From positions 61,259-125,258 of the forward strand of contig CACYHE010000002.1 in the NCBI GenBank assembly GCA_902774185.1: a stretch of DNA of 64,000 nt, written 5' to 3'. The DNA comes from an uncultured Bacteroidales bacterium. GTDB lineage: Bacteria; Bacteroidota; Bacteroidia; Bacteroidales; Paludibacteraceae. Under the pieces are notes generated by a model. It was not told the origin of the DNA and searched no databases. It worked only from the letters and a program-made list of their open reading frames with translations. Shown here one piece after another: positions 2,466-57,190 of this stretch. Position 1 is the stretch's first letter. Each line of letters opens with the position of its first letter. Made by a program: the position numbers and the translations under genes.

Positions 2466-2490
2466 ATCATAAATTATAAATTATAAATCA
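2466..2490. repeat. Heptad tandem tract (ATAAATT units)
   Basis: Three consecutive 7-bp units (ATAAATT, ATAAATT, ATAAATC) fill the spacer between the nucleoside permease stop and the gldF-like start codon. Confidence 0.7.
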
Positions 2491-2493
2491 CAT

Positions 2494-3159
2494 ATGTTCC
2501 GTAAGGAACTCACATATTATTTTTCTACGCCTATAGCGTACATCGTCATTGGCTTGTATCTATTGGCAATCAGCCTCTTCCTTTGGGTGATTCCCGGTCA
2601 ATGGAATATCATTGACTCGGGATACGCCCAAGTAGACGGGCTCTTCCAACTCAGTCCTTGGCTCTTCATGCTACTCTGCCCTGCCCTTACGATGCGACTT
2701 TTCTCCGAAGAACGGCAAAGCGGTATATGGGACCTGATCCGAACCAAACCGATTTCACTCAGTCGCATTGTGATCAGCAAATACTTCGCGGCATGGACAC
2801 TGGTTCTCATTGGCCTGCTGCCTTGCTTCGTGCATTATTTTGTGGTATCCTACATGGCAGAACCCATGGGAAACCTCGATAGCGGAGCATTCCTTGGCTC
2901 ATTCATCGGACTTATCTTATTGTCCGGAACCTTCATGGCAATCGGTATCCTCTGTGCTACGTTCAGTAAGAGTCAAATCGTCTGCTTCATCGGCGGCGCA
3001 CTGAGTTGCTTTATACTCTACTGGGTTATCTTACAAGACCATTACACCTCTATTTCTCGTGGTGTTTTGGACTTGCGCGACCTTGTTTTCTTCATTACCG
3101 TCATCATCGTTGCGCTCTTGGCGGCAATAATCACCATTGATAAATTCACCCGCAAATGA
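2494..3159 (+). CDS. gldF: GldF-like ABC-2 type transporter permease
   Basis: A 221-residue permease with about six membrane segments. The N-terminus (MFRKELTYYFSTPIAYIVIG) and the segment RLFSEERQSGIWDLIRTKPIS match the GldF family, the membrane subunit of the GldA-GldF-GldG ABC transporter tied to gliding motility and widespread in Bacteroidota. The usual partner gldG is not downstream; instead a phosphoesterase overlaps the stop by 4 bp (ATGA). It is somewhat short for the family. It may be the GldF of this organism with GldG elsewhere, or a stand-alone ABC-2 permease. Confidence 0.8.
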   Translation: MFRKELTYYFSTPIAYIVIGLYLLAISLFLWVIPGQWNIIDSGYAQVDGLFQLSPWLFMLLCPALTMRLFSEERQSGIWDLIRTKPISLSRIVISKYFAAWTLVLIGLLPCFVHYFVVSYMAEPMGNLDSGAFLGSFIGLILLSGTFMAIGILCATFSKSQIVCFIGGALSCFILYWVILQDHYTSISRGVLDLRDLVFFITVIIVALLAAIITIDKFTRK

Positions 3160-3692
3160 CACGCATAGGGGTTTTGAGCGACACGCACGGCTTGCTGGAC
3201 AAGCGTATCTTTGAGCATTTCAAAGATGTAGATGAGATCTGGCACGCCGGAGATATCGGTAGTGCGGAAGTACTGCAAGCACTGCGTGAATTTAAACCGA
3301 CACGTGCCGTTTTCGGCAACATGGACGGCGGAGAAGTGAGATACAGTCTCTCTGAGTTTTACCGGTTCAAAGTGGAAGAGATCAATGTCCTTATGACCCA
3401 TATAGGCGGTTATCCGGGGCATTATAACCCTTGGCTCATTCCGTGGTTTAGGAAAAGTATGGAAGCCAAAATGACCAATGACCAATCACAAATGGCAAAT
3501 GTCATTGATCTCTTTGTCTGCGGACATAGTCATATCTTAAAAGTGCAGTACGATAGCCAGTTTCAGATGATGACAATGAACCCCGGAGCGGCAGGCAAAC
3601 AGGGATGGCAACCTTGCCAAACTTTATTGCGGTTTACCATCGACAAAAAGGAGATCAAAGATCTGGAGGTAATTGAACTAAAATGGCAATAA
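3156..3692 (+). CDS. Metallophosphoesterase, YfcE/MJ0936 family
   Basis: A 178-residue calcineurin-like phosphoesterase. The metal ligands are visible in order: the N-terminal D-x-H (SDTHG), HAGDIG, GNMD, MTHIGG and CGHSH. This set is typical of the small YfcE-type phosphodiesterases; the natural substrate is not predictable. The start overlaps the gldF-like stop (ATGA), implying translational coupling. Codons near residues 106-116 (encoding MTNDQSQMANV) are a 7-bp tandem tract lying between two metal-ligand motifs, probably in a surface loop. Confidence 0.85.
   Translation: MTRIGVLSDTHGLLDKRIFEHFKDVDEIWHAGDIGSAEVLQALREFKPTRAVFGNMDGGEVRYSLSEFYRFKVEEINVLMTHIGGYPGHYNPWLIPWFRKSMEAKMTNDQSQMANVIDLFVCGHSHILKVQYDSQFQMMTMNPGAAGKQGWQPCQTLLRFTIDKKEIKDLEVIELKWQ
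3471..3502. repeat. Heptad tract inside phosphoesterase gene
   Basis: Units ATGACCA, ATGACCA, ATCACAA, ATGGCAA repeat with a 7-bp period, in frame, within the phosphoesterase reading frame. Confidence 0.75.
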
Positions 3693-6166: not shown

Positions 6167-7477
6167 TTATTGTTTTCCTCGTAACAGGTTAATATCTCCG
6201 GATAATTGATAGACACCGATCATCGCTTCATCGGCCTTCAGTTTCTTTTTGTTATAAACCGCCTTCATCGTATAACGAGCGTTCTTGTCAGCGTCCGTAC
6301 CCAATGCCCGAATGACGTAGTAATACGCACCTTCAGCTGCAGGTTTTCCGTAGATGGTTCCATCCCACCCCTTGGCAGGATCTGTCCACTCATACACTAA
6401 TTTTCCCCAGCGGTTATAGACCCAGCAGTGGAACTCTCTGAGCGAACGGTAAGCAACCCGGAACTCGTCATTCGTACCATCTCCGTTAGGCGTGAACACA
6501 TTCGGTACACGCAAATACGATTCGGAGATATTGATGATCATCTCCGCCGAATCAGACAGACAGGTACGATTCGATACTTTGCATACCACGCGATAGGAAC
6601 CCGGTTCCGAGAAGGTATAACGGATATCTTTGTCATTACGGGTCGCAATGCGTTCGGTAGATTGGTAAATATCCCATCCGTAGAACTGTACAGCGGGTGT
6701 CGGATTGGAATAAAAAGCCACTTCGAGAGCACCGCTATAACTCATAGCAGCATCAAGAATCTGTTCGATAGGACGCTCCAACTCATTGTTACCTGCCGGA
6801 TCGTTCTCACGTGCCGTTCCCAAAGTAACCAATTCCATCTTCACCGCTTTGACGGCTTCTTCCGTCACATCGTAAGTCAGACAAACAGGGTCTAAACCCA
6901 AGGTATCACGCAGCTCCGCATCGTAGCATAACTTGATCGGTGTCTTGCCGTACAACGCGTCCATAGGGATGATCGAAGCAAGATTCATCGTTATTTGCGC
7001 TGCGGAATCCTCCCATTGGTCATTATTCCATACCAAGGCATTATAATCTATGGAACACGTGCGCGCGTATGTAGCACGCGAACCGTTTCTACGAGTATAA
7101 CTATAGGGAGTGACATCTCCCGTCAGACGAAGCATCGTTGCATCGCAATCCAGATCTACCGTCATAGCAAGCTCGGACGTCTTGCACGTGAACACATAGA
7201 ACGGGTTATACTCCACTCCGCCTTTGACCAGATAGTAACCGCCGTCGTCCAAGTCATAGACATATTCCATGTCGGTACGAACCGCCATACCTGTTTCCGT
7301 CGAGTACCAATCCGCATTACCGATCTTGGAGCGCAGTTCGATATTGTCCTTAAAAATAAACAGCGTATCGGTTCCATTGATACGTTGCGTCGCCTTACTC
7401 ACGCACTCGACATGCATCTGTGCGTGAGTAAGAGCGGCAACAAGCGTCAATAGAACTATGTAAACACCTCTTCTCAT
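6167..7477 (-). CDS. Secreted protein with type IX sorting domain (type B, CHU_C-like)
   Basis: A 436-residue protein with a signal peptide (VYIVLLTLVAALTHAQ). The middle holds a PKD/Ig-like segment around residues 250-320. The C-terminal about 100 residues carry the gliding-motility-associated domain: VPNVFTPNGDGTNDEF, then VYNRWGKLVYE and GWDG, the pattern of type B sorting signals for the type IX secretion system. It should therefore be exported across the outer membrane and anchored or released there. The remainder (about residues 20-240) is not recognised. Its ATG overlaps the serA stop by 4 bp, an odd coupling between a surface protein and a serine biosynthesis gene. Confidence 0.85.
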   Translation of the reverse strand: MRRGVYIVLLTLVAALTHAQMHVECVSKATQRINGTDTLFIFKDNIELRSKIGNADWYSTETGMAVRTDMEYVYDLDDGGYYLVKGGVEYNPFYVFTCKTSELAMTVDLDCDATMLRLTGDVTPYSYTRRNGSRATYARTCSIDYNALVWNNDQWEDSAAQITMNLASIIPMDALYGKTPIKLCYDAELRDTLGLDPVCLTYDVTEEAVKAVKMELVTLGTARENDPAGNNELERPIEQILDAAMSYSGALEVAFYSNPTPAVQFYGWDIYQSTERIATRNDKDIRYTFSEPGSYRVVCKVSNRTCLSDSAEMIINISESYLRVPNVFTPNGDGTNDEFRVAYRSLREFHCWVYNRWGKLVYEWTDPAKGWDGTIYGKPAAEGAYYYVIRALGTDADKNARYTMKAVYNKKKLKADEAMIGVYQLSGDINLLRGKQ

Positions 7478-8394
7478 TTATTCACTTGGAAGCGGGTGTT
7501 ACCGTTTTGGAAGAAGTCCACAATCTGCTTAGCGGCTGCGATACCGGCATTGATATTGGCCTCGGCTGTCTGTGCACCCATCTTCTTTGGAGTTGCGAAG
7601 TAACGTCCCTCAAATAACGTACGGAACTTTGCGTCAGCAACCGGCATAATATCCGTCATGTACTTCAGGTCAGCACGTTCCTGCATTAACGCGATCAGAC
7701 CTTCTTCATCGATCACCTCTTTGCGCGCCGTGTTAACAAGCACACCGCCTTTCGGCATAAGGTTAACGAGATCATGGTTGATACTGTTCTTCGTCTCTGC
7801 AGTTGCCGGGATATGAAGACTCACGATGTCGCAGGTCTTGTATAACTCTTCGGCACTATGCACCGGTGTTACGTTTGCGGCAACCATCGCCTCGTCCGGA
7901 CAGTACGCATCGTACGCATAAACTTCCATTCCGAAGCCTTGTGCGATACGAGCTACGTTACGACCTACATTACCGAAGGCATGGATACCCAGTTTCTTTC
8001 CCTTCAGCTCTGTACCGCTGGTACCGTTATACAGATTACGAACGGCATAGACCATCAAGCCCAGTGCCAATTCGGCTACCGCGTTACTGTTCTGACCCGG
8101 CGTGTTCATGGCTACCACCTGATGAGCGGTAGCTGCCTCCAGATCAATGTTATCGTAACCGGCTCCGGCACGAACGACGATCTTCAGTTGCTTAGCGGCG
8201 TCCAGGACAGCCACATCCACAATATCCGAACGGATAATCAAGGCATCTGCGTCTGCGACAGCTTCTAACAACTGCGCCTTATCGGTATATTTCTCAAGCA
8301 GCGCCAGTTCATAACCTGCGCCTTCTACCACTTCGCGGATACCGTCAACGGCTACTTTTGCAAAGGGTTTTTCTGTTGCTACTAATACTTTCAT
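7474..8394 (-). CDS. serA: D-3-phosphoglycerate dehydrogenase (2-hydroxyacid dehydrogenase family)
   Basis: First step of serine synthesis: NAD-dependent oxidation of 3-phosphoglycerate. I chose the ATG giving MKVLVATEKPFAKVAVDGI; a longer frame to 8469 adds 25 residues with no family character. Visible motifs: RAGAGYDNID (substrate-binding Arg), the Rossmann turn FGNVGRN, and VNTARKEVIDEEGL (Arg and catalytic Glu). Where classical SerA has TPHxGG with the catalytic His, this protein reads TPKKMGAQT. No C-terminal ACT domain: about 306 residues, the short form. It follows serC by 78 bp, so both serine genes are together in one run; serB is not in the window. Confidence 0.9.
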   Translation of the reverse strand: MKVLVATEKPFAKVAVDGIREVVEGAGYELALLEKYTDKAQLLEAVADADALIIRSDIVDVAVLDAAKQLKIVVRAGAGYDNIDLEAATAHQVVAMNTPGQNSNAVAELALGLMVYAVRNLYNGTSGTELKGKKLGIHAFGNVGRNVARIAQGFGMEVYAYDAYCPDEAMVAANVTPVHSAEELYKTCDIVSLHIPATAETKNSINHDLVNLMPKGGVLVNTARKEVIDEEGLIALMQERADLKYMTDIMPVADAKFRTLFEGRYFATPKKMGAQTAEANINAGIAAAKQIVDFFQNGNTRFQVNK

Positions 8395-8470
8395 TGTTTC
8401 AAATAAAGAGGTTAATTCCAATGTTTTACCTTTGATATGCTTAACAGGCATGATATAGGAGTAGCCCATC

Positions 8471-8495
8471 TTTCAACTTTCAACTTTCAACTTTT
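8471..8495. repeat. Heptad tract supplying the serC C-terminus
   Basis: TTTCAAC units (7-bp period) between serA and serC. Read on the minus strand, the tract encodes the last residues of SerC (KLKVES) and its TGA stop. Confidence 0.8.
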
Positions 8496-9561
8496 CATAC
8501 TCCTTGATGCAGTCAACAAGTGCCTGAACACCCTCAAGATCCATCGCGTTATAGCAGCTTGCACGGAAACCGCCAACCAGACGGTGACCCTTGATACCTA
8601 CCATGCCACGCTCCGTTGCGAACTTGAAGAAGTCATCCTGCAGATCCTCATAACCCGGTTTGAACACGAAGCAGATATTCATACAACTGCGGTCCTCTTT
8701 CTTCGAGATTGTCGGCATAAACAACTTCGACTCGTCCAGACACTTGTACAGCAAGTCCGCTTTCGCTTGGTTGCGTGCTTGAATCCATTTAACACCACCG
8801 TTTGCTTTGAGCCAACGAAGGGTGAGCACAGCCGTATAAACAGGCAGTACAGGAGGAGTATTGAACATCGAACCTCCGTCAATATGCGTCTGGTAATTGA
8901 GCATCGTCGGGATGTAACGGCTCACTTTACCCAAACAACTCTCTTTGATGATCACGAACGTCACACCCGCCGGCGCCAGGTTCTTCTGCGCACCGCCGTA
9001 GATGATATCGTACTGACTGACATCGATCGGACGGCTTAAGATATCCGAACTCATATCGGCTACCAAACCTACTTTGCCTTTCTTGCGATAGATCTCAGAC
9101 AACTTCTCGTCGTTGATTTCCGTACCGAAGATGGTGTTGTTGGTTGTGATATGGAAATAATCAGCATCCTGCGGAATCTCATAATCCGTCGGGATGTCCG
9201 TCGTGCTGGCTGCAACCTCAACCGCCTCACCGAAGCCCTTTGCCTCTTTCAAGGCTTTCTTACTCCAAACACCCGTATTCAGATAAGCCGCTTTTTTCTC
9301 CAGCAGGTTAAACGGTACCATACAGAACTGCAGACTTGCACCACCTCCCAGGAACAATACGCGATAACCTTCCGGAATGTTCAGCAACTCCTTCATCAAG
9401 GCTTCCGCTTCGTCCATAACGGGTTGGAAATATTTGGCACGGTGAGAAATCTCCAAAACGGAAAGGCCTTCTCCCTGAAAATCGAGTACGGCGTCTGCCG
9501 TTTGTTTGATTACTTCTTGCGGCAGGATACTCGGTCCTGCATTGAAATTATACTTTTTCAT
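8473..9561 (-). CDS. serC: Phosphoserine aminotransferase
   Basis: PLP enzyme converting 3-phosphohydroxypyruvate plus glutamate to phosphoserine, second step of serine synthesis. The 362-residue length is normal. The N-terminus [16 protein letters not shown] is diagnostic. The PLP lysine lies in [12 protein letters not shown], and [12 protein letters not shown] near the C-terminus is the family's substrate-phosphate segment (RAS.YN). The final six residues and stop codon are encoded by a 7-bp tandem tract, so the original C-terminus may have been replaced or extended. Upstream 62 bp separate it from the carboxyltransferase gene. Confidence 0.95.
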
Positions 9562-9595: not shown

Positions 9596-9625
9596 CTTTC
9601 AACTTTCAACTATCAACTTTCAACT
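9596..9625. repeat. Heptad tract between carboxyltransferase and serC
   Basis: TTTCAAC/TATCAAC units with a 7-bp period. The carboxyltransferase stop codon (TAG, 9624-9626) abuts and overlaps the tract. Confidence 0.75.
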
Positions 9626-11288
9626 ATTTTAGCACGTAGTGCTTGTGATTCCAAGCTGTCGGGTGAATCTCCGGCAAAGTGATAATACCCTCTTTCGGTT
9701 TCATACCTGCCAGATGCAACGCCATCACTACTGCTGCCATGTCGTCGGCGGAAGCTCCCTTCCCTTCAGGGGAGGGCTGGGGAGAGGCTATATATTTCTG
9801 CAACTCTTCAGGCACTTGCTTACCTGCTTTCTGCATTCGCTCTGCCAGATCCTTATTGAACTGCTCTTTCGCCAGACCACTCTTGAACTCACGGTACTGC
9901 TTCTCATGCATTGCGAACTCGAACAACTCCTCGTCGTCTTGACCGCGGTCCCAACCCAGTTCTTTCATCTCTTTGATGAAACGCGGTAACTCGTTCGGGT
10001 ACAACTTCTGCGGGTCATCAGTATAGAACTCAAAGCCCTTCTCCTTCGCCAACTCGATGATCTCCGGAGCCAACTCACCGGGCAACTTACCGGACTTACC
10101 AAGGATCATACCCCACATAGCGGGATCCATACGGGTAAAGTCTTTCTCACCCATCGAACGGCTGAACAGGTTCATCAACGCCGCATTCTTCACGTACTGA
10201 CTGAACGGCGTCACCAGACAAGGTGTACCGAGCATAGGCCAGATACGTTGTACTTCGTCGAACAACTGAACCAGCAACTCATCCTCGCTCAACTCTTTCT
10301 CACCTTTCTTCTTAAGGTTAGCGTTGATAGCAGCGTGCATGCCCTTCAAGTCCGCCATGAGCGAACCCATCATACCTCCCGGCAGACCGCATCCGACAAG
10401 CAGCGAAGTCATCAGACTGTTCTTAGGATCGATCCAGTAACCCAAGAAATCATCGATAAACGACTGTGTCAGGCTGCGTGCCTCCATGTATGCCTTCATA
10501 TTGATGTCTTTCACCAGGAATCCGGCATCCTTCAGCATCGCCTGAATGGTGATCACATCGGGATGAACCTTACCCCAACTGAGCGGTTCCATCGCTACGT
10601 CCAGCACGTCACCACCGGCCTTGGCAACCTCTAACATCGAAGCCACACTAAAGCCCGGACCACAGTGACCGTGGTACTGGATGATGATATCAGGATGTTT
10701 CTCTTTGATAGCAGCCACGATCACACCCAACATATGCGGACGACCGATACCGGCCATGTCTTTCAGACAGATCTCTTGCGCACCGCCTTCAATCAGTTGT
10801 TCTGCGAGGTTGATATAGTACTCGGCATTATGCACTTTCGAATAGGTGATACACATCGTCGCCTGTGCGGTCATACCTGCATCTTTCGCCCATTTGATAG
10901 ACGGAATAATGTTACGCGGATCATTCAGACCACAGAAGATACGGGTGATATCCGTACCCTGCGCATGTTTCACTTTGTACATCAACTGACGCACATCTGC
11001 CGGAACAGGGTTCATACGCAGCGCGTTCAAACCACGATCCAACATATGGGTCTTGATACCCGCCTCGTTGAACGGCTTGCAGAACGTACGAACGGCTAAG
11101 TTCGGGTTCTCACCATACAGCAGGTTCACCTGCTCACTCGCACCGCCGTTGGTCTCAACACGGTCAAAACAACCCATGTCGATGATCACCGGCGCAATCT
11201 TCGCCAATTGATCTTTGCGCGGCACATATCTACCGCTACTCTGCCACATGTCACGATAGACAAGGGAGAATTGAATTTCTTTTTTCAT
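9624..11288 (-). CDS. Biotin-dependent carboxyltransferase, pyruvate carboxylase B/OadA-like
   Basis: A 554-residue TIM-barrel carboxyltransferase. Characteristic segments are FSLVYRDMWQSSGRY at the N-terminus, the catalytic lysine in EICLKDMAGIG, the metal-ligand histidines in YHGHCGPG, and QIWPMLGTP-like and FSQYVKNAA segments. It would transfer carboxyl from biotin to pyruvate or the reverse (oxaloacetate decarboxylation). No biotinyl domain (no MKM motif) is present and no biotin carrier gene is adjacent, so partners must be elsewhere. Between the barrel and the last 40 residues sits SPQPSPEGKGAS, encoded by a GC-rich palindromic repeat, in frame. Confidence 0.85.
   Translation of the reverse strand: MKKEIQFSLVYRDMWQSSGRYVPRKDQLAKIAPVIIDMGCFDRVETNGGASEQVNLLYGENPNLAVRTFCKPFNEAGIKTHMLDRGLNALRMNPVPADVRQLMYKVKHAQGTDITRIFCGLNDPRNIIPSIKWAKDAGMTAQATMCITYSKVHNAEYYINLAEQLIEGGAQEICLKDMAGIGRPHMLGVIVAAIKEKHPDIIIQYHGHCGPGFSVASMLEVAKAGGDVLDVAMEPLSWGKVHPDVITIQAMLKDAGFLVKDINMKAYMEARSLTQSFIDDFLGYWIDPKNSLMTSLLVGCGLPGGMMGSLMADLKGMHAAINANLKKKGEKELSEDELLVQLFDEVQRIWPMLGTPCLVTPFSQYVKNAALMNLFSRSMGEKDFTRMDPAMWGMILGKSGKLPGELAPEIIELAKEKGFEFYTDDPQKLYPNELPRFIKEMKELGWDRGQDDEELFEFAMHEKQYREFKSGLAKEQFNKDLAERMQKAGKQVPEELQKYIASPQPSPEGKGASADDMAAVVMALHLAGMKPKEGIITLPEIHPTAWNHKHYVLK
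9755..9786. repeat. GC-rich imperfect palindrome inside carboxyltransferase gene
   Basis: The core CCCTTCAGGGGAGGG is flanked by CTCCCTTC and CTGGGGAGAG, forming an imperfect hairpin. It encodes SPQPSPEGKG in frame on the minus strand. From general knowledge, peptides of this kind recur in many unrelated Bacteroidota proteins, which suggests a dispersed mobile repeat. Confidence 0.7.
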
Positions 11289-11295: not shown

Positions 11296-11332
11296 GAATT
11301 CTTAATTTTTAATTCTTAATTTTTAATTAAAA
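11296..11332. repeat. Heptad tract at the end of the Wzi-like gene
   Basis: AATTCTT/AATTTTT units alternate with a 7-bp period. The stop codon of the upstream barrel gene lies inside the tract edge (11327-11329). Confidence 0.75.
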
Positions 11333-13033
11333 TCCGAACGACAATCCGCAACCAAACGTCAGTTTCTTGCCATGCAGATAGACCGGACTGTAAGTATCCA
11401 GGTCTGCCTGATTATTTGCCCGAGCATAACTGTAAGCGCAATCAACATGCGCGTAGCAGTTATTAAACACCTCATATACTGCACGGAACTTAATCTCATC
11501 ATTCTTCCAGATGGCGTTCTTGAAAGGCGTCTCGGCAATGATCTTACTGATATCGCCTCGTATATAATCGTACGCCGTATATTTGGTATCGGAGGTATAG
11601 TCCAAGGTCAGACGCAGACTACGGGTCGGACGGTAACTCAACTGCAACCAAATACTCTGCGAGTTGGCTCCCATGTAATGACCCATCTGATAACTATTGG
11701 ACGTATAATCGAGCACTTTGATCGAGTGGACATAGGTCGCTATGTAACTACGCATGAACTCGCCACGCAAAGCCAGCCCCTTCACCGGCCAACCGCTCCA
11801 GTTGAAACCCACCAGATAGGACACAGGGTTCTTCTGCGGGTTCGATTTCTTCAGACGTGCCAACTTGAACTCATCCAGAAAGAACGAACCATACAAACGC
11901 AGATGGTCTGTCGGACGTACAGAGATAGACGCAAAAGCCTGACTGTTCTGGTTCTCGGTATGCAATCCTTTCGTCAGCAGGTGATCCAGCGACTTGTAGA
12001 ATGCGATAGGAATGAAATAGGCAGCCTGCACATTGCGCTCCGCATAAACGATCGAGTTACCGAAACTGAACTGCACATATTTGCAGGGCATGAACGTGAA
12101 CATGTTCGCGGCCATGAACTTATTCGCCGGTCGATACTCACGCTGCGTCGTCGTGGCGGTCTGTTGCTCCATGTACCAATAGGTCGAGTCGATCACATTC
12201 GACGGTAACCACGCATGGAAATAATCGAACTGGAACCACTTGCAAGGCGTCAACTGCAGCGTCACCATCGGTACTGCCGGATTATGCGCCGACAGGATGT
12301 TCGAGCAATGCTGCGCGTCTCCCCATTGGATACGTTCGCGTTGCACGCCGATACTACCCCACCATGTATATAACGAGATACCGCCTCTCGAATCAGAGAA
12401 ATCACCGCCATAGTTCGCCTCTTTGTACTGCACTCCGGCAAGATTATTGAGGTAAAGCGGCTTGGTCACACGCGAACCTTCAATACCTTGTCCGCTCCAA
12501 CTGTTATCACGAATCGAACCCCAAATACTGAGGTGCTTGGCGATGTCCATCTGAAGCTCGGCGCCATAGACACGGTGCATCAGAAGCCCGTTCTTGTTAT
12601 AACTGAGGTCCATGCCCAAAATCGGACGCACACGCATCTTGAAGATCTTGTCTTTGGTCAAGATATGCAAACTCGGATCTGCCAGATTAAGGTTCGACAC
12701 CTTTGTTTTCCATTGGGTCACATGACGATGACCGTAACTATAATACGTCGGCAGCGTGTCGCACTCCAACGCATAGTCCTGCAAGTAGAATTGCAAATCC
12801 GCTTTCTGCCGTCTGTTCAGCAACGAATCCCTACTCTGCGCTTCCATCAACCGCGCAGCGATATAGTCCCGCGTATACGGTTTGATCGCCGCATTAGTTC
12901 GGATAACACCGTCCGTCGTCAACTCTTCCAGAAAATCATACACCTCCGTGTACTCGATCATCTCCGGAATCCGCTGCGCCAGACAAGTTGAAAATTGAAA
13001 ATTGAAAATTGAAAGGAAGAAAAGAATGATCAT
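11327..13033 (-). CDS. Outer-membrane beta-barrel protein, capsule-assembly Wzi-like
   Basis: A protein of about 568 residues with a signal peptide (MIILFFLSIFNFQFSTCLAQ) and a helical N-terminal domain (EYTEVYDFLEELTTDGVI). Many amphipathic aromatic strands follow, and the end (GCGLSFGF) is typical of barrels. The N-terminal pattern and segment RERIQWGDAQHCSNILSA suggest the Wzi capsule-assembly family of Bacteroidota; this is a moderate-confidence call. The start at 13033 was chosen because the longer frame adds KGERTYKVKGERLKVKG, pure translation of a 7-bp repeat tract. Even within the signal peptide, FNFQFST is encoded by a second tract. Confidence 0.7.
   Translation of the reverse strand: MIILFFLSIFNFQFSTCLAQRIPEMIEYTEVYDFLEELTTDGVIRTNAAIKPYTRDYIAARLMEAQSRDSLLNRRQKADLQFYLQDYALECDTLPTYYSYGHRHVTQWKTKVSNLNLADPSLHILTKDKIFKMRVRPILGMDLSYNKNGLLMHRVYGAELQMDIAKHLSIWGSIRDNSWSGQGIEGSRVTKPLYLNNLAGVQYKEANYGGDFSDSRGGISLYTWWGSIGVQRERIQWGDAQHCSNILSAHNPAVPMVTLQLTPCKWFQFDYFHAWLPSNVIDSTYWYMEQQTATTTQREYRPANKFMAANMFTFMPCKYVQFSFGNSIVYAERNVQAAYFIPIAFYKSLDHLLTKGLHTENQNSQAFASISVRPTDHLRLYGSFFLDEFKLARLKKSNPQKNPVSYLVGFNWSGWPVKGLALRGEFMRSYIATYVHSIKVLDYTSNSYQMGHYMGANSQSIWLQLSYRPTRSLRLTLDYTSDTKYTAYDYIRGDISKIIAETPFKNAIWKNDEIKFRAVYEVFNNCYAHVDCAYSYARANNQADLDTYSPVYLHGKKLTFGCGLSFGF
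12986..13014. repeat. Heptad tract encoding part of a signal peptide
   Basis: ATTGAAA units, 7-bp period. On the minus strand they encode the hydrophobic FNFQFS within the Wzi-like protein's signal peptide. Confidence 0.8.
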
Positions 13034-13035
13034 TC

Positions 13036-13100
13036 CTTTCACCTTTAACCTTTCACCTTTCACCTTATATGTCCTTTCACCTTTCACCTTTCACCTTTCA
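13036..13100. repeat. Long heptad tract between ompH and the Wzi-like gene
   Basis: About eight CTTTCAC-type units, interrupted once by CTTATATGT. The ompH stop codon is the first unit's edge (13098-13100); the tract fills the entire spacer. Confidence 0.85.
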
Positions 13101-13745
13101 TTTCTTATAACGTGCATTTAGCGCTTCAACGACTTCTTCTGTGATATCGTAACCGGCTACTTTGTTCAGCACAACGGCATCGTTGATGATCAGATGAAGA
13201 TGTCCGTCCGCATTGTACTCACGCAGATAAGCCTCCACGGAGTCCTGCAACTGTTGAACGAGCGCAGCCTGATTAGCCATGAACTCATTACTCAACTGCT
13301 GACGCAGGTTCTCTAAGTCCTGCTCTTTAGCCATCAGTTGTTGTTGTTTCTTCTCCAACTTGGCAGCCTCACTCTCTGCACGCTCACGACTCAAGAACGC
13401 GCCAACCTCCACTTTCTTTTGGAAATTAAGATAATCCTGCTTGAAGGTCTCTGCCTCTTTCTGCAAAGCTTTTGCCTTGCTGTCCAACTTCAAAATAGCC
13501 TCCTCGTACTGCGATGCCAATTTTTCTTTTCCTTCTACCGCAAACGTGTACTGCATACTGATCGAATCGGTGTTGACCACTGCAATCGGCAGTAACGCAC
13601 CCTCCACCTGCACCTCTTGCGCAGCAACAACTTGCTTCTTGCCGCCCCTTGAAGGCAATGCAAAATACACCAAGAAGGCAACCAAACACGACAGCACACA
13701 AATAAAAGCTGTTTTAATCATTTCTCTAACTTTTCCGTTTTCCAT
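13098..13745 (-). CDS. ompH: OmpH/Skp family periplasmic chaperone-like protein
   Basis: A 215-residue protein with an N-terminal membrane anchor or signal (AFICVLSCLVAFLVYFAL), then a region starting PIAVVNTDSISMQYTFA. A long charged coiled coil follows (about residues 75-165, rich in E, K, Q). This is the layout of OmpH/Skp, which holds unfolded outer-membrane proteins in the periplasm. It lies directly upstream of a beta-barrel gene, consistent with that role. The uncleaved-looking anchor and the extension before the Skp-like core are common in Bacteroidales. An alternative start at the internal ATG eight codons later is possible. Confidence 0.8.
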   Translation of the reverse strand: MENGKVREMIKTAFICVLSCLVAFLVYFALPSRGGKKQVVAAQEVQVEGALLPIAVVNTDSISMQYTFAVEGKEKLASQYEEAILKLDSKAKALQKEAETFKQDYLNFQKKVEVGAFLSRERAESEAAKLEKKQQQLMAKEQDLENLRQQLSNEFMANQAALVQQLQDSVEAYLREYNADGHLHLIINDAVVLNKVAGYDITEEVVEALNARYKK

Positions 13746-14768: not shown

Positions 14769-14943
14769 TGTACCAAGTCGCTTCAACCACAATGAATGTC
14801 CATGTGGGTATGTTTATATCCACGCCTCGCTATAGGGTGAGGCGGGTTTAGCATATCGGGCGTGGATTTCGGTTGTTTTTCTACTTGGTACAGGCATGCG
14901 AAGGCCTATGGGAGCGTGAAGAGCAAACGGACTTCACGCTTTT
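14769..14943 (+). ncRNA. Structured RNA candidate upstream of a nuclease-family gene
   Basis: The 301-bp gap between DUF2442 and the next gene is dominated by paired segments. A 10-bp closing stem TGTACCAAGT (14769-14778) pairs with ACTTGGTACA (14883-14892). Inside are hairpin CCACA/TGTGG (14787-14791, 14803-14807) and stem ATCCACGCC (14818-14826) with GGCGTGGAT (14859-14867). The latter encloses a competing GCCTC/GAGGC hairpin. A 9-bp hairpin AGCGTGAAG/CTTCACGCT (14913-14940) with a short T tail follows. No convincing reading frame crosses it. It could be an independent RNA, a 5' leader controlling the nuclease gene, or a structured DNA element. I do not recognise the family. Confidence 0.55.
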
Positions 14944-14978
14944 GTTGTGTATACGTATTTGAACAAAATTTATTTAGT

Positions 14979-42774: not shown

Positions 42775-45702
42775 TCAAATCTTAACCATCGCCCGACTGT
42801 TAAACCCGTCAATATACATCTCCAGCGGTTTGTCCAGTCGTACATGACGAACAAGATCGGTCTCTTCCACCGCAGGGATTGCGTCCAGTACATCGGTATC
42901 TAACAGATCTTCCGGTCTTGCCCATGGGTCTATATTCATATAACCGACGTTAAACGACGTGAGGTTTTGGAAGAAATGGCTGCCTTGTGAGGGTTCAATA
43001 CGGAAATTCTCCAAACTGCATTCCGCAATGGCTTTCGCTTCGCTGATATCTCCCCATACAACCGGTACACCCAGTGTAGGTATCTGAGATCCCCATCTTC
43101 CGTATCCGATAAGCAAATACTGCTTGCCTTCTTGTTGCATGCGTCTATTCCACTCTCGAATCGTTTGCGCCATCTCACGCGTACGCAATATATCAAAGGC
43201 ATCCCGACGCACATAGATGATATCGCGTACGTCATCTATCTGACCGATACCGAGCGCATTGGTGGAACGAAGGAAAGCATCCGATTCGTCTATATTGTCC
43301 CAGTTTACATTGGCAGTCAGACTATCTGCCGAAATAGGCCGTATCTGTAGCACATGGAAGATCTGCGGGTCATGCTCCAAATTGATAGCAAACTCTATCT
43401 CAACCGGAGTCTTAATCTCTTGCTGCGCAATATCAAGTAATTGTTGTACGATAGCGGTAAGAGGGAAAGTGTTGAATTTCAATTGCTGCGCAAATGTCAC
43501 AATCCTCGGTCCGTCCGGATAACAGGAATCCACAATGCGCATATTCTCCCGGTCATAGGTGGACGCTATAAGTTTCAAACTCTCAAACTGTCCGCATTCG
43601 TGAATCGGGATACGCTCCAAATTCACCGCATCATCGACGGATGTCTTAAAGCGTTCCGGACTAAGCGACAGCGCTAACATCGATTGTTGCGTCTCACGCA
43701 TCGCCAGATCCACGGTAGATGTCTGCAATACATTTTTCGGATATTTGGGACTGAACCGTAACACCTGTTCTCCATCTACAACCGCCTTGCCCAAACCATA
43801 GGCAATCTTCACGATGCCATCCTCCGGTTTCTCTTTGCCTACCGGATAGAAATTGATACTACGCGCCACGCCGGAGATGACGGGGAAATAATAATTTTCT
43901 TCCTGCTCACCGCAAACCTCTTGTAGCACAATCGCCATCTTCTCCTCACTCGGCACATTTCCCGTAGAAACGATATACCCACGAGATGCAGCAAAATAGA
44001 CGGACGCATAAACGGATTTCACAGCTTTACTCAGCATTCTCAACTGCTGGTCCTCATTCTCCGTATTAGGAATCATATAGGTGCTATAGACTCCCGCAAA
44101 AGGCTGATAATAGGAATCCTCTAACTTTGAAGACGAACGAACCGCAAGCGGTCTTTGGGTCACACGAATGAAATGACGTAAGGCTTCACGCAACTCCAGC
44201 GGTAACATCGCTGCCACAAACTCCGACAAGATCTCTTCGTCCGTCAGGTCAGCATTGATTACATATTGAAGTCCGTTGTCATGAATGAAACGGTCGAAAT
44301 ACTCCGTCGTGATGACCATCGTACGCGGCACAAAAACACGTACGTCCTGCCATTTGTCGTACAGATCGTATTTCTGTAACATATGGTTGAGGAAGGCGAG
44401 TCCTCTACCCTTTCCTCCCATCGCGCCATCACCACAACGAGCGAACCAAATAGTGTCGTTATAGGTGTCCGGCGCATATTTGGCTACAACACCGAGTGCT
44501 TGGTTGATGCGGTAATCGTGGATCAAACGAATATTCGTTTGTCGAATATGTTCAATGTCCGTCTCATCTTGAATCTTCAAAGCGCTGACAGGACGACCTA
44601 CCGAGAACAAACCCCGTGCAAAAAGCCATTTGGACAAGTAGTTATTGTCGCTCAGACGCCGGAACGCAGCAGGAGAGATCGTCGATATGATGCGCTCAAA
44701 ACCCTCCAAGTCTGACGCACGCGCAATCTCTTTGCCGGTACGTGGATCACGCGCAATGAAATCTCCAAAACCGAACTCCCGTTCGATATATTCGCTCACC
44801 TCCTGCAACAGGGTCTTGGATTTCTTGACCACAAAACCCACCTTGAGTTGACGAGCAATAGAGCGCATCGACTCTTGAGAACTCTGCATCAAGAACGGCA
44901 TTGTCGGATTCTCTTCGCGAATAAGACGACATAAATCGACACCTGCATCGAGTTTTTCGCTGGACGCAGGATCGCCTTTATGAATGACAAAACCGATATC
45001 GGATATCACACCGATGATATTTTTGCTATACCTATGGTACAACTCCACTGCTTCGTCATAGCAGGTCGCCATCAACATCTTAGGTCGCGCACGTTTACGA
45101 AGTAACTGTTGCTTCTCATTTAGTGCATCGCGTATAGCAATCGTATTTTGCTGCAACACAAGTTTGTATAGCAAAGGCAGGTAGGTGGAGTAATAGCGAA
45201 CACTGTCTTCTACCAGCAATATCGCCCGCACACCTTCATCCAAGATATCATGCTCGGCGTTCAAACGGTCCTCAATCAACTTGATGATTGCGATGATAAG
45301 GTCCGTGGAGTTATTCCAGTTGAAGAGGTAATCAATATACGAAGTATCCTGCTGTTCAATGCGGCGATGAACCTCTTTACTGAAAGAAGACAACAGCACA
45401 ATCGGACATTCCGGTAAAAGAGTCTTTGCTTCTTTGGCAAAATCCCACACCTCATTGCCTCCTGCACTATAAACGACCAGTATCAAGTCAAAAGAGTCCT
45501 GACTTTCGACATTCGACTTTTGACTTTCGACTATATCTAGCGCTTCACGCGGTGTCTCTGCCCGCACGATGGAAGGCGGATTACTCAGATTGAGTTCCGC
45601 ATATTCCTGCGCGATTTGCACGTCAATACGTCCATCCTCCTCGAGTGCAAAACTATCGTAGTTATTGCACACGAGCAGAATACGTCGCACGCGCTTCGAC
45701 AT
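42775..45702 (-). CDS. Receiver domains fused to PEP-synthase-type ATP-grasp domain
   Basis: About 975 residues, often annotated as phosphoenolpyruvate synthase. Residues about 1-130 resemble a response-regulator receiver lacking the phospho-Asp (ILVVYSAGG). Residues about 140-330 are a second receiver with acidic LLVEDS, phospho-acceptor Asp in VISDIGF and Lys in VVKKSK. From about 415 comes the PPDK N-terminal ATP-grasp region (GGKGRGLAFL, AVRSSSKLEDS, VLQIRPIS). The phosphohistidine swivel domain and PEP-binding barrel are missing, so true PEP synthesis is doubtful. Start: ATG 45702 (a GTG at 45726 is possible). It lies 25 bp after gdhA. Confidence 0.8.
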   Translation of the reverse strand: MSKRVRRILLVCNNYDSFALEEDGRIDVQIAQEYAELNLSNPPSIVRAETPREALDIVESQKSNVESQDSFDLILVVYSAGGNEVWDFAKEAKTLLPECPIVLLSSFSKEVHRRIEQQDTSYIDYLFNWNNSTDLIIAIIKLIEDRLNAEHDILDEGVRAILLVEDSVRYYSTYLPLLYKLVLQQNTIAIRDALNEKQQLLRKRARPKMLMATCYDEAVELYHRYSKNIIGVISDIGFVIHKGDPASSEKLDAGVDLCRLIREENPTMPFLMQSSQESMRSIARQLKVGFVVKKSKTLLQEVSEYIEREFGFGDFIARDPRTGKEIARASDLEGFERIISTISPAAFRRLSDNNYLSKWLFARGLFSVGRPVSALKIQDETDIEHIRQTNIRLIHDYRINQALGVVAKYAPDTYNDTIWFARCGDGAMGGKGRGLAFLNHMLQKYDLYDKWQDVRVFVPRTMVITTEYFDRFIHDNGLQYVINADLTDEEILSEFVAAMLPLELREALRHFIRVTQRPLAVRSSSKLEDSYYQPFAGVYSTYMIPNTENEDQQLRMLSKAVKSVYASVYFAASRGYIVSTGNVPSEEKMAIVLQEVCGEQEENYYFPVISGVARSINFYPVGKEKPEDGIVKIAYGLGKAVVDGEQVLRFSPKYPKNVLQTSTVDLAMRETQQSMLALSLSPERFKTSVDDAVNLERIPIHECGQFESLKLIASTYDRENMRIVDSCYPDGPRIVTFAQQLKFNTFPLTAIVQQLLDIAQQEIKTPVEIEFAINLEHDPQIFHVLQIRPISADSLTANVNWDNIDESDAFLRSTNALGIGQIDDVRDIIYVRRDAFDILRTREMAQTIREWNRRMQQEGKQYLLIGYGRWGSQIPTLGVPVVWGDISEAKAIAECSLENFRIEPSQGSHFFQNLTSFNVGYMNIDPWARPEDLLDTDVLDAIPAVEETDLVRHVRLDKPLEMYIDGFNSRAMVKI
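45499..45534. repeat. Heptad tract inside the receiver/ATP-grasp gene
   Basis: GACTTTC, GACATTC, GACTTTT, GACTTTC: 7-bp period, in frame on the minus strand, encoding VESQKSNVESQ in the first receiver domain. Confidence 0.9.
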
Positions 45703-45727
45703 CAATGATGTGTAGTTACTTTCCACT

Positions 45728-52039: not shown

Positions 52040-52649
52040 AGTTCTCTGCAAGGAGGAACGATATCACCTGCGGTAAGACCGCCAGCATACGTTCATTGGA
52101 TTTAAGGGAGTCATGGAAGTTGATGATACTTCCCGGTCGTACATTCCGTCGGATCTGTTTCAACATCTGTTCCGGCGTACGCGTTGCCTCATAATCCCTT
52201 GTCAATATATCCCAATAAATCAACCGATACCCTTTCTTATGCAACGCTATTCTCTGTCGCAGCGTCGCTTTCCCGTACGGCGGTCTAAACAGGTCTGTGT
52301 GCTGTGTTCTGTCATCTGTCAGCGAAGCGGTCTGTATTCTTTCTGCGCAGCGGTCTGCATTCTCCATGTACACATCGAATGGCGTCTTCCATCCTTTAAG
52401 ATGATTATACGTGTGATTACCTATCGCATGACCGCCTTTGACCACCTGCTCAAACACCTCCGGGTGCTTGTCGATGTTCTCGCCTACCATAAAGAACGTT
52501 GCCTTCACGCCATAACGCTCCAGAATCTCCAATACCTTTGGCGTTACTTCGGGAATAGGACCGTCATCAAAGGTCAAATACACTGCCCTACCCGTACGGA
52601 AAATACCATACGGGTAGAGCCAATGCCATATATCTCGGAATTTTACCAA
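52020..52649 (-). CDS. Polysaccharide deacetylase (NodB-like)
   Basis: A 209-residue carbohydrate esterase 4 family protein. Motif 1 is TFDDGP, motif 2 HTYNH, motif 3 RPPYGK; the C-terminal INFHDS supplies the catalytic His. It would remove acetyl groups from GlcNAc polymers such as peptidoglycan or capsule. The start appears to be TTG at 52649 (or GTG at 52646), overlapping the ROK kinase stop by 7 bp. A repeat-rich segment (RCAERIQTASLTDDRTQHTD) is inserted between motifs 2 and 3. Confidence 0.88.
   Translation of the reverse strand: MVKFRDIWHWLYPYGIFRTGRAVYLTFDDGPIPEVTPKVLEILERYGVKATFFMVGENIDKHPEVFEQVVKGGHAIGNHTYNHLKGWKTPFDVYMENADRCAERIQTASLTDDRTQHTDLFRPPYGKATLRQRIALHKKGYRLIYWDILTRDYEATRTPEQMLKQIRRNVRPGSIINFHDSLKSNERMLAVLPQVISFLLAENYEIKTL
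52291..52365. repeat. Heptad tract plus AGCGGTCTG motifs inside the deacetylase gene
   Basis: GTGTTCT-like 7-bp units followed by two copies of the GCGNAGCGGTCTGNATTC motif, in frame on the minus strand. Confidence 0.8.
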
Positions 52650-55089: not shown

Positions 55090-55092
55090 AGA

Positions 55093-57159
55093 TTAAAGAT
55101 TTTTTTGTAAAAAGATGATTATTTTTTGATGTAAATGAGCGGAGTTATTTCCTTTTCTCAGATGATGGTTGTCATCAGGATATAGTTGCATCTCAAACTG
55201 CTTGTTTTCTTTCACCAATGCATCGATATACTGCATAGTGTGCTGCACATGCACATTGTCATCTCCCGTACCGTGGATAATCAACACATTGCCCGTCAAG
55301 TCGGCTGCTTTGTTGAGCAACGATGCCGCTTCATATCCGCTGTCATTAACCTGCGGACGACGCATGTAACGCTCCGTATAACCCGTGTCATATAAGCGCC
55401 AATCGGTCACCGGAGCTATTGCCACGCCCGCCTTGAACGGATGGTTCTTCATACTCATCGTATAAAGCGTCTCGTAACCGCCGTAACTCCAACCGAGTAT
55501 CGCCATGCGGTCACCGTCTATATCCGGACGCTTGGCCATATACTCAGCGGCCGAAATCAAGTCCTCCGCCTCTTTCTTTCCCATACGCATATAGGTCTCA
55601 TTGCGCCATGCACGACCCCGGTTATCCGATCCTCTCGTATCCACAATCAGCACCGCATAGCCCTGCTCTACCAACGCATATTCAAAATTCTTCCGCCATC
55701 GGTTCAGCACACGCTGACTAGCCGGACCTGAATAATGCATCACGACCAAAGGCATCTGTGCTCTGTCAGCGGAGCGGTCTGTGTTCTGTGATCTAAGAAG
55801 CATCGCTTCGAGGCCGTTGATCCGCATCAACTCAGGTTCGGGAAGCTTATTGGCTTTCCATGCCTCACGCACTTTCGCGTTATCTTCCAATACCCTTTCC
55901 TCTTTGAGTGAAACGGTCTTTCCACTTTCGACTTTATACAACACATATCGATTCGGAGTGTCGAACGACTGATAGCAGAATACGGCTTTCTTCCCGTCCT
56001 TGCTGAATCGTGCGCTGTGCATTCCTTCTTCAGCGGTCAGTTGGGTAATCGTACCTTTCTTGATATTGAGCGCATAAATCTGCCTGGTACTCGGTGTCGG
56101 AGCTGCCTGATAATAAAGCGTCTGGGCCTTCTCGTCCACCGCATAGACTGCCGTCACATCGATACCGTCAGGCGTCAGACGTTTTTGCTCAAAGCCTTGG
56201 TTATTATACAGATATACACTTCTCCAACCGTCTTTCTCACTCAGCACAATGAACCGTCCGTCGCTTAACCATTGCCACTCGTCGAACAGGCTGTAGTCCA
56301 TGAAACAATCCTTACTCTCCTCCGTATAGATAACCTGCGAAAGGGTCGATTTGGCATTGCATTGCAGTACCTCCATCTTCGTCTGGTCTCTATTGACGCG
56401 CAACACCATCAGATTTCCGTTCTCCCATTTCAGACGAGGGATATAGCATCCTCTAACCCTCTCATCCTCTAATCCCTTCATCTTCTGCAACGCCTTCGTG
56501 GACAGGTCATACACCCATACACTCGCTTTCGCATTCTCACAACCCGCCTTCGGATAACGAAGACTCTTCTCTATAGGATATTGTAAATAAGTCTGTGCGC
56601 TGTGTTCTGTGTTCTGTGTTCCTAAAAACTCCTGCCATGCAAATGTAGGTACCTCCCGTTCGTCCAACCGAACGAACGCCAACTGTTTCGAGTCTTCCGA
56701 CCATGCATACAAAGCCGTTGTTCCGAATTCCTCTTCGTATAACCAGTCGGCCACACCGTTGATGATATCGGGATTCTCATCTTTGGTTACCGCTATTTCC
56801 GTACCGAAATCCGCCTTATGGATATACAGGTTATTGTCTTTTGCAAACGCCACATACCTTCCGTTCGGACTCATCTCGACATCCCGTACCTGCTCAAAAC
56901 CCATACCGGCTCCGAGTTGTTTACGCGTACGACGCATCGTGTCCAGCACGTACCAGTCTGCCACTTCCGAATGACGGAAGATCTTCTGCTCGTTCTCTTT
57001 CTCCAACCGATAACGAGTGCACACCATTCCATCATTGAGCGAAGCGCTCACTCTATCATTCAGAATACTGTCCTGCTCCGCTACACTCAGCGTCTTTGCT
57101 TTGTATTCACCGGACAAGATACCGGTCAACACACCTACTATAATTACTAATCCTTTCAT
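55093..57159 (-). CDS. Dipeptidyl peptidase IV-type serine peptidase (S9)
   Basis: A 688-residue exported peptidase: an N-terminal DPPIV beta-propeller (ISPNGRYVAFAKDNN-like segment, DWLYEEEFG) and a C-terminal alpha/beta hydrolase. The nucleophile is in GWSYGG, the Asp in HGTGDDNV, and the His in DDNHHLRKG near the end. It removes Xaa-Pro dipeptides. The N-terminus (MKGLVIIVGVLTGILSG) is a short signal. Three repeat tracts lie in frame: QNTEHSAQ, KGLEDERVRG and RSQNTDRSADRAQ. Its start codon abuts a further tract. It follows the unknown secreted gene by 9 bp. Confidence 0.9.
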   Translation of the reverse strand: MKGLVIIVGVLTGILSGEYKAKTLSVAEQDSILNDRVSASLNDGMVCTRYRLEKENEQKIFRHSEVADWYVLDTMRRTRKQLGAGMGFEQVRDVEMSPNGRYVAFAKDNNLYIHKADFGTEIAVTKDENPDIINGVADWLYEEEFGTTALYAWSEDSKQLAFVRLDEREVPTFAWQEFLGTQNTEHSAQTYLQYPIEKSLRYPKAGCENAKASVWVYDLSTKALQKMKGLEDERVRGCYIPRLKWENGNLMVLRVNRDQTKMEVLQCNAKSTLSQVIYTEESKDCFMDYSLFDEWQWLSDGRFIVLSEKDGWRSVYLYNNQGFEQKRLTPDGIDVTAVYAVDEKAQTLYYQAAPTPSTRQIYALNIKKGTITQLTAEEGMHSARFSKDGKKAVFCYQSFDTPNRYVLYKVESGKTVSLKEERVLEDNAKVREAWKANKLPEPELMRINGLEAMLLRSQNTDRSADRAQMPLVVMHYSGPASQRVLNRWRKNFEYALVEQGYAVLIVDTRGSDNRGRAWRNETYMRMGKKEAEDLISAAEYMAKRPDIDGDRMAILGWSYGGYETLYTMSMKNHPFKAGVAIAPVTDWRLYDTGYTERYMRRPQVNDSGYEAASLLNKAADLTGNVLIIHGTGDDNVHVQHTMQYIDALVKENKQFEMQLYPDDNHHLRKGNNSAHLHQKIIIFLQKNL
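55754..55792. repeat. Heptad tract inside the DPP-IV gene (near catalytic domain)
   Basis: GTGCTCT, GTCAGCG, then GAGCGGTCT and GTGTTCT, GTGATCT: in frame on the minus strand. Shares the AGCGGTCTG motif with 52291-52365. Confidence 0.8.
56446..56482. repeat. Octad tract inside the DPP-IV gene
   Basis: CCTCTAAC, CCTCTCAT, CCTCTAAT, CCCTTCAT: 8-bp period, in frame, encoding KGLEDERVRG. Inverse orientation of the helicase tract at 24292. Confidence 0.85.
56592..56631. repeat. Heptad tract inside the DPP-IV gene (propeller)
   Basis: GTGTTCT, GTGTTCT, GTGTTCC: 7-bp period, in frame, encoding GTQNTEHSAQT. Inverse orientation of the subtilase tracts. Confidence 0.88.
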
Positions 57160-57190
57160 CTCTAATCCCTAATCTCTAATCCCTAATCTC
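57157..57190. repeat. Heptad tract at the junction of DPP-IV and the secreted gene
   Basis: CTCTAAT, CCCTAAT, CTCTAAT, CCCTAAT: 7-bp period. It encodes the upstream gene's last residues (RLGIRD) and stop, and ends at the DPP-IV ATG. Confidence 0.88.

Follow-up and report, generated by a model that had tools for sequence, protein, structure and literature searches.

Why should a bacterial genome carry many short tandem repeats that agree in the length of their unit and differ in its sequence? The question is raised by a 64-kb stretch of DNA from an uncultured Bacteroidales bacterium of the Paludibacteraceae (GenBank contig CACYHE010000002.1, positions 61,259 to 125,258; here called the window), in which arrays of seven-base units lie both between and within genes. 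An initial annotation had attributed these arrays to a mechanism that acts on unit length. Our analysis leads us to conclude that they are a dense, multi-word variant of the heptanucleotide simple-sequence repeats known from other bacteria. As to how they arise, we give an even chance to the explanation that slippage maintains the arrays while their units are copied or homogenised between loci, the products being filtered by reading frame and mRNA context.

Period-seven arrays in the window and the genome

Tandem Repeats Finder (TRF), at a score cut-off of 30 or more, reports 25 period-7 rows between window positions 2463 and 57188 as compared to three rows of period 8 (at 24296, 51342 and 56447). 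The initial count of at least two dozen tracts with a period of mostly seven and sometimes eight bases was thus accurate, and all unit types that it named are present in the window. A stricter lag scan at a fixed score finds 20 period-7 tracts (21 at a slightly lower score) and none in any of 20 order-2 Markov shuffles of the window. The same scan yields 0, 1, 1, 1, 0, 1, 0 and 0 tracts for periods 5, 6, 8, 9, 10, 11, 12 and 13, respectively, and the 13 rows of period 14 are a harmonic of 7. Only the lengths need correction: instead of 25-65 bp most tracts measure 24-34 bp with a mode of 30-33 bp, and the one tract of 66 bp, at 13035-13100, consists of two arrays and an interruption.

The genome to which the window belongs is a 2.19-Mb draft of 35 contigs that is 87% complete. 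Outside the window we sampled 400 kb in 20 stretches (about 18% of the assembly) from six contigs previously listed by a pattern search, and found 115 period-7 arrays (288 per Mb) as opposed to 13 of period 8. Every other period from 2 to 13, or 15, gives 0-14 arrays, and the harmonics 14 and 21 give 69 and 32. Enrichment of period 7 over the genome, which the initial annotation had named as a check, therefore holds in this sample outside the window against the non-harmonic periods scanned. Period-7 arrays extend beyond the window and are specific to period 7 and its multiples, and a fixed period with varying sequence is supported by the window scan and the 400-kb sample alike.

The window and the 400 kb together form a 464-kb sample with 135 arrays. 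The length mode of 30-33 bp corresponds to four units plus 2-5 bases, and four whole units are present in 57 of 128 arrays of this genome and in 90 of 249 arrays of its relatives. This four-unit share is 29/58 and 50/114 inside open reading frames (ORFs), 20/41 and 27/93 at ORF edges, and 8/27 and 13/41 in wholly intergenic arrays (own genome and relatives, respectively); tested as four against three or five units, arrays inside ORFs differ from intergenic ones (p 0.03) and from all others (p 0.016). The edges of the arrays are sharp, with unit matching beyond them at background (0.28 versus 0.27). Within an array, units that follow each other are more similar than a random order would make them, as the observed adjacency is reached by only 1 of 2000 order shuffles in this genome and by 0 of 2000 in the relatives. 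Likewise, columns in which two units carry one base and two another are mostly of the form AABB (24, with 5 ABAB and 4 ABBA; 27, 7 and 10 in relatives). The likeness of adjacent units agrees with the prediction of local unit duplication.

Unit repertoire, array ends and orthologous sites

The 135 arrays are built from 48 canonical unit types, whereas 126 would be expected of heptamers drawn from the same DNA and 110 of letter-shuffled units; the genome thus uses many units, yet far fewer than chance. Moreover, arrays of one genome that lie in different 20-kb blocks share units more often (0.0345) than under permuted labels (0.0203, with 2 of 2000 permutations reaching the observed value), in a test that left out regions chosen by repeat content. 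In five genomes of a larger set that had partly been picked by repeat content, 0 of 1000 permutations reach the observed unit sharing. Among the listed matches to three tandem GARRRTY units, the genus genomes G051 and G061 prefer GAAAATT (20/28 and 6/7 arrays), G075 prefers GAGAATT (20 of 30 listed) and G052 prefers GAAGATT (6/7), and no strong preference is seen in G048 (3/7) and G053 (2/6). Unit repertoires thus differ between genomes to a significant degree. Pairs of arrays separated by 0.5-1.5 or by 1.5-5 kb resemble each other more than permuted pairs do (8/500 and 0/500 permutations), and of the 18 similar pairs within 1.5 kb, 16 have direct orientation.

Arrays of one unit also tend toward the same start and end base in unrelated flanks, as exemplified by (AGTTGAA)4AG, (AATTGAA)4AATT, (AAAGGTG)4AAAGG and (AGAACAC)4AGA. 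After removal of arrays with a common 12-mer in the flanks and of regions chosen by repeat content, 213 deduplicated arrays remained, 136 of which have a unit that occurs at least three times; of these, 57% start and 59% end in the modal phase. Random-phase arrays re-detected in real flanks give a mean of 38.5% and a maximum of 45% and 46% in 300 null sets. For the own genome alone the values are 56% and 62% of 84 arrays, the null maximum of 500 sets being 47% and 49%. A universal end phase across phyla, suggested by AACACAG arrays whose ends seemed to agree with those of the window's arrays, was dropped because the 28-mer scan by which they were found imposes the phase. Among 41 AAAGTTG arrays from other families of the Bacteroidia and from viral contigs, 14 have the same start and the end phases are others; the 21-mer used to find them can bias short arrays. 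At best, then, the end-phase preference is lineage-specific.

Could purely local slippage account for these features? According to a hypothesis of Mrazek et al. (2007), as related in PMC4692102 and PMC4679880, the replicative polymerase favours slips of seven nucleotides, so that any short match spaced by 7 bp would be expanded in place with no copying between loci. We regard this as possible, if well short of probable. It would explain how a constant period goes with many sequences and why adjacent units are alike, and a microhomology seed would be consistent with lengths of 7n plus 2-5 bases. In addition, loops of seven nucleotides escape mismatch repair, and 60 of the 61 genus genomes have MutS_V matches, among them the genome studied here (open frames of 881 and 777 amino acids). 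Loss of mismatch repair was considered as a cause in its own right and set aside, since with MutS_V so nearly ubiquitous a link with array density could not have become visible (the search did not include MutL). Slippage that starts locally from random seeds is, however, difficult to reconcile with 48 unit types where 126 or 110 are expected, with repertoires that are specific to a genome, and with phases shared in unrelated flanks, because random seeds predict random phase whereas shared phases are expected if blocks have a common descent or if a sequence-specific process is at work. To produce them it would need sequence-specific slip hot spots. The small number of unit types, their genome specificity and the shared phases together indicate that the process has sequence memory; a mechanism acting on unit length alone, as initially proposed, is not supported.

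Orthologous sites, compared with one genome per species, bear on the history of single arrays. The site at 21294-21325, inside a tRNA/rRNA uracil-5-methyltransferase-like gene, was compared with 29 other genomes of the genus. In six relatives the interval is exactly 32 bp, as in the window, with a clear array in five of them and a partly degenerate one in the sixth (G021). Their units are AGTCAAG, GATTGGA, AATTTCA (twice), AGTCAAA and ATCACAA, that of the window being AATTAAG, so that seven species carry six different units in a 32-bp interval and in one register. Of three further relatives, one has 38 bp and an array, and two have 35 and 29 bp with no array called; the interval measures 23 bp in sixteen genomes and 14-17 bp in four, all of them free of arrays. 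Over all orthologue comparisons, arrays stand on both sides in 51 rows, 20 of them of equal length. In all 19 distinct equal-length rows listed, in-register identity (0.46-0.94) exceeds that of the best other register, the offset being the best of up to seven and several rows representing the same gene or the same pair twice; protein-level constraint may help to keep the register at such sites. Of 58 rows in which a tract faces an orthologue without one, 41 differ in length by a multiple of three; many of the rows come from one gene. A few sites resemble clean insertions of 32-65 bp, which at an identity of about 80% is weak evidence. Ordinary conservation had been named at the outset as the finding that would speak against a special mechanism: orthologous positions are in fact mostly empty or hold another unit, often at equal length, while the same family and length are kept at some sites, namely 38671-38698 (in G051 and G003) and two sites shared by G015 and G046. 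With these exceptions, a single ancient element and ordinary conservation are both rejected.

On a bolder view, the arrays would be no independent scars of slippage. They would belong to a self-copying, genome-wide system in which operon junctions and protein loops receive seven-base words particular to a lineage, written or copied in blocks that comprise about four units and have preferred ends, and in which the words at a site are replaced in concert with length and register kept. This we think rather unlikely.

Arrays inside and between genes

In the 464-kb sample (ORFs of at least 90 amino acids), 75 of the 135 arrays lie inside ORFs, 31 straddle an ORF end and 29 are intergenic, as the initial placement at gene junctions and inside genes had implied. 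Non-ORF DNA makes up 47 of the 464 kb, so that arrays are enriched between genes; gene calls are longest ORFs, and their starts are uncertain. The tracts of the window are as follows.

Identified by both TRF and the lag scan:
2463-2488, no strand assigned: TAAATTA array, after or over the end of ORF 1077-2465 (nucleoside symporter)
3470-3501, plus strand: AATGACC array inside ORF 3156-3692, peptide MTNDQSQMAN
8470-8494, minus strand: CTTTCAA array (mRNA strand GAAAGTT) that overlaps the 3' end of ORF 8473-9561 and immediately precedes ORF 7474-8469
9596-9625, minus strand: CTTTCAA array of 30 bp that reads (AGTTGAA)4AG on the minus strand, one variant included, and lies between ORFs 8473-9561 and 9624-11288
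11297-11328, minus strand: 32 bp of alternating AATTCTT/AATTTTT (14-bp period) between ORFs 9624-11288 and 11327-13087
12988-13014, minus strand: TTGAAAA array near the called 5' end of ORF 11327-13087, the true start of which is uncertain
13035-13100, minus strand: two CCTTTCA arrays (13035-13066 and 13073-13100) where ORFs 11327-13087 and 13098-13745 (OmpH-like) meet
57158-57188, minus strand: alternating ATCTCTA/ATCCCTA (14-bp period) where ORFs 55093-57159 and 57169-58488 meet

Identified by TRF:
24296-24324, plus strand: octamer array AGAGGATG (period 8) inside helicase-like ORF 23637-25037

Identified by the lag scan:
21294-21325, plus strand: AATTAAG array of 32 bp inside the uracil-5-methyltransferase-like gene 20491-22041, with other units at the orthologous site of relatives
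21557-21590, plus strand: ACCAATT/ACAAATG array of 34 bp that forms a second hypervariable site in the same gene
22022-22053, plus strand: AATTGAA/AATTGAT array of 32 bp across the stop of the same gene, into the next reading frame
22378-22408, plus strand: AGAACAC array of 31 bp inside subtilase-like ORF 22045-23466, peptide RTQSTEHRTQ
23339-23368, plus strand: AGAACAC/AGAGCAC array of 30 bp inside the same ORF, peptide STEHRTQST
24195-24226, plus strand: AATTATC array of 32 bp inside helicase-like ORF 23637-25037, peptide NYQLSIINYQ
38502-38533, minus strand: AATTTTC array of 32 bp at the 3' end of YceD-like ORF 38521-39042; G048 has a 31-bp interval with an array of another unit
38671-38698, minus strand: TAATTGG array inside the same ORF, peptide QSPMTNYQL; same family and length in G051 and G003
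39057-39080, minus strand: ACTTTTG array (GAAAGTC family on the minus strand) between the pheS-like and YceD-like ORFs
45501-45532, minus strand: GACTTTC array of 32 bp inside PPDK_N ORF 42775-45726, peptide VESQKSNVES
52295-52321, minus strand: weak CTGTGTG/CTGTCAT array, lag-scan score 11, with a TRF period of 23 at that place
56593-56621, minus strand: CTGTGTT array (AACACAG family) inside DPP IV-like ORF 55093-57159, peptide TQNTEHSAQ

Genes of the window with internal arrays are thus the uracil-5-methyltransferase-like, subtilase-like, helicase-like, YceD-like, PPDK_N and DPP IV-like genes, and the arrays are read through as peptides such as NYQLSIINYQ and STEHRTQST. In ORFs of at least 150 amino acids, the consensus repeat would give an in-frame stop in 18 of 61 arrays of this genome, and a variant base removes it. 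In the AATTAAG array at 21294-21325, for instance, the sole deviating unit, AATGAAG, stands where TAA would be read. Such cases show how frames stay open and not, by themselves, selection; the 18 arrays are no proof of it, because openness is true by construction and the count equals the three-frame expectation of 18.7.

Between genes, arrays occur at 51 of 237 co-directional junctions of this genome, as compared to 5 of 38 where the genes converge and 0 of 30 where they diverge; the relatives show 93/613, 8/97 and 6/77 (p 0.007 and 0.017). Where they stand at co-directional junctions, arrays have a purine-rich mRNA strand (40/51, and 78/94 in relatives) with 6-8% C, as opposed to 16-17% upstream of starts without arrays, whereas arrays inside ORFs have little or no strand bias (32 to 17, and 51 to 51 in relatives). 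A stop triplet on the mRNA strand is found in 48 of 54 junction units versus 19 of 61 inside ORFs, a contrast that is partly circular, and predicted structure at starts with arrays is slightly weaker (-4.9 versus -6.3 kcal/mol; 41 and 132 junctions, p 0.04). Are the arrays then functional cis elements under selection, as binding sites or as mRNA spacers such as translation signals at operon junctions? Functional roles have been proposed for TAACTGA repeats (PMC4679880) and for four-heptamer elements of Geobacter (PMC2700814), and the preference for co-directional junctions, the composition of the arrays there and the weaker structure all point in this direction. However, more than half of the arrays lie in ORFs and are nearly unbiased there, the units vary widely within one genome, and orthologous junctions often have no array. 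The junction bias is compatible with a role as an unstructured spacer that supplies stops in every frame, or else with plain tolerance, and we consider selection for such elements an unlikely source of the arrays.

The explanation that we favour, slippage combined with copying between loci, would treat selection as a filter and slippage as the engine. Slippage or short conversion would cause whole 7-bp units to be gained, lost and made alike within an array, and units would be spread or homogenised between arrays at different loci, giving each genome a repertoire of its own. Inside genes, four units plus 2-5 bases would prevail, with variant bases where the repeat would make a stop; the four-unit mode may have originated when one unit with its microhomology gained three more, which adds 21 bp and keeps the frame. 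At co-directional junctions, the surviving copies would provide a C-poor, purine-rich mRNA spacer with stops. Several observations weigh against this explanation. The sharing of phases is a tendency and no rule, and it could reflect a sequence-specific enzyme. At distances below 0.5 kb, the likeness between arrays is not raised (12% versus 16%). Lag-7 matching outside the arrays, in the flanks and the rest of the sequence, revealed no decayed arrays. Turnover of units is not universal, as the unit is nearly unchanged (identity 0.79-0.94) in 6 of the 19 equal-length rows, though different in the remaining ones. No pair of donor and recipient loci was caught among 30 pheS and 30 rumA loci, the closest of which have 85% nucleotide identity, and at that distance no fresh gain or loss of an array was seen either. 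The counts of avoided and of retained stops are partly circular, since ORF limits define the classes. Finally, frame selection alone explains the four-unit mode only in part, as the mode is weaker outside genes yet present at ORF edges and, weakly, in intergenic arrays.

Some further features of the window deserve mention. A composite of two array types around GGAAGAAAAGAATGA...CCCTTTCACC lies at 12988-13100 beside the OmpH-like gene. It recurs at two places in the sample of the own genome and also in G015 and G046, its sites outside the window being L037 15557, L216 807 and 2347, L222 12807 and L231 1622. A Bacteroidales small SRP RNA (Rfam family) is located at 23468-23575. The large ORF 16268-19726 contains 69-bp (23-residue) repeats at 16527-18405 (TRF), which we take to resemble BspA-type leucine-rich surface repeats, and directly upstream of it, at 14862-16262, is an ORF of the PD-(D/E)XK nuclease superfamily (PF14281). 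ORF 26978-29587 contains 96/192-bp repeats at 28571-29105 (TRF) whose consensus encodes aspartate-rich motifs, presumably akin to thrombospondin type 3 repeats. The pheS frame is extended upstream (40120-40240, minus strand), and over about its first 50 codons roughly 100 further weak matches are found in genus genomes. This upstream region is an AT-rich dispersed sequence, present in the window with TTGCATATATGCAA and TAATTTTGCA, and is perhaps, we assume, a Bacteroidota promoter region.

Known heptamer repeats, distribution and candidate enzymes

Seven-base tandem repeats are known from cyanobacteria as short tandemly repeated repetitive (STRR) sequences. According to a wider survey, heptamers are the commonest tandem repeats between genes in many prokaryotes, with no clear clue to their function (PMC6344855). 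Tandem 7-bp units, intergenic abundance and a patchy taxonomic range are common to those repeats and ours, and a period of 7 in excess of both chance and other periods places our arrays among them. In contrast, more than half of the arrays here are inside ORFs, and many units per genome, genome repertoires and shared phases are not reported in the passages of that survey considered here. The description of Geobacter metallireducens lists 49 elements of four heptanucleotides with the consensus GGACCGG, within and between genes, and five-heptanucleotide sites MTYCTGA (PMC2700814). Four tandem heptamers in many copies, within and between genes, are also what we see; the Geobacter classes, however, have one consensus each and are filed as regulatory, whereas dozens of units are found here at the same array size, and the 48 canonical ones are mostly AT-rich and do not conform to the single consensus GGACCGG.

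The initial annotation gave no named counterpart in the Bacteroidota, which is partly wrong, since direct repeats of TAACTGA are described from marine Beggiatoaceae, cyanobacteria and five Bacteroidetes in PMC4679880. By that account they are strain-specific, have few copies, lie mostly just upstream of starts and in some cases over the upstream stop, and provide stops in three frames. The arrays at 51 of 237 co-directional junctions, with a stop in 48 of 54 units, have a similar location, though most arrays are inside ORFs. That study deals with one sequence, heptamers related to it being rare as repeats in the genome concerned (PMC4679880), and TAACTGA (canonical AACTGAT) is absent from the 48 own units. 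Xanthomonas arrays of the GGGAATC type mostly have four units and are mostly flanked by the same genes in two species, with much variation in length and sequence; these heptamers and GGGGA(T/C)T of Nostoc can fold as G-quadruplexes (PMC4692102). Units here have no such G-runs, the only one of the 48 with a run of three C or G being ACACCCT (one array). The (GATAGRA)n satellites of Chloroflexus, from a survey of satellites with repeats of at least 10 nt (PMC6749651), are derived from a heptamer, scattered in one genome and species-specific as here, but have a single unit. DNA uptake sequences, where an uptake receptor binds one short recognition word, offer an analogy through their dialects. 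The phase tendency, the genome repertoires and the replacement of units at one site were not found in the literature searched, parts of papers in several cases, which is no proof of their absence from print.

How far does the phenomenon reach? Matches to three tandem GARRRTY units number 0 to 92 per genome in 61 genomes of the genus, and in stretches not chosen by repeat content the array density within the genus is 0-600 per Mb (some samples being 20 kb). At the order level 76 of 295 genomes have a match, and exact triple GTTGAAA occurs in 19 of 395 genomes drawn from the class. Four tandem AACACAG units are present in 97 stretches in 84,980 species genomes, a count without a control-heptamer baseline, and the titles among the 80 listed include Nitrospirota, Spirochaetota, Bacteroidota, Synergistota, Planctomycetota, Actinomycetota and others. 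The heptamer-array habit is thus widespread and patchy. Locus L097 of Nitrospiraceae SURF_11 has 14 period-7 arrays of diverse units, mostly 30-35 bp, within 8 kb. The IMG/VR viral contig L278 carries five GAAAGTT arrays, some with similar flanks, and such arrays hence occur on contigs classed as viral too.

Shared phases, genome-specific words, sharp edges and some sites that look like insertions with little or no loss would also fit template-directed writing, in which a telomerase-like or other template-bearing enzyme extends breaks or nicks by about four copies of a genome-specific 7-nt word and ends at the template border. A reverse transcriptase was considered as such a writer, but RVT_1 has no match in the own genome at E 1e-8 (assembly 87% complete; other reverse transcriptase families not searched). 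It is present in 14 of 61 genus genomes, and pattern counts with and without it do not differ (medians 9 and 3, p 0.51). We therefore rejected this candidate. Some 48 words in one genome would, besides, need many templates, and we judge writing of this kind very improbable. No co-occurring protein family was found, the search being confined to RVT_1 and MutS_V. That the arrays are a metagenome assembly artefact or ordinary conserved sequence is hardly credible: the genome is a draft of 35 contigs, but matches occur in many independent genomes, frames inside genes are open, arrays differ between orthologues, and arrays of about 31 bp are shorter than usual sequencing reads.

Slippage with copying of units between loci remains our preferred explanation. 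With more than 150 species and a sampled array density ranging from 0 to 600 per Mb, the genus constitutes a natural experiment on the reason for a period of seven. The results on phase, on repertoire and on different units at the same site turn the vague idea of polymerase slippage into predictions that can fail: whether a unit comes from a local seed or from the genome's repertoire, whether ends are random or shared, and which gene loss or gain tracks density. Should the self-copying word system, unlikely as we hold it to be, prove true, the period-7 excess of prokaryotes would reflect dispersal with sequence memory and not merely the footprint of a polymerase.

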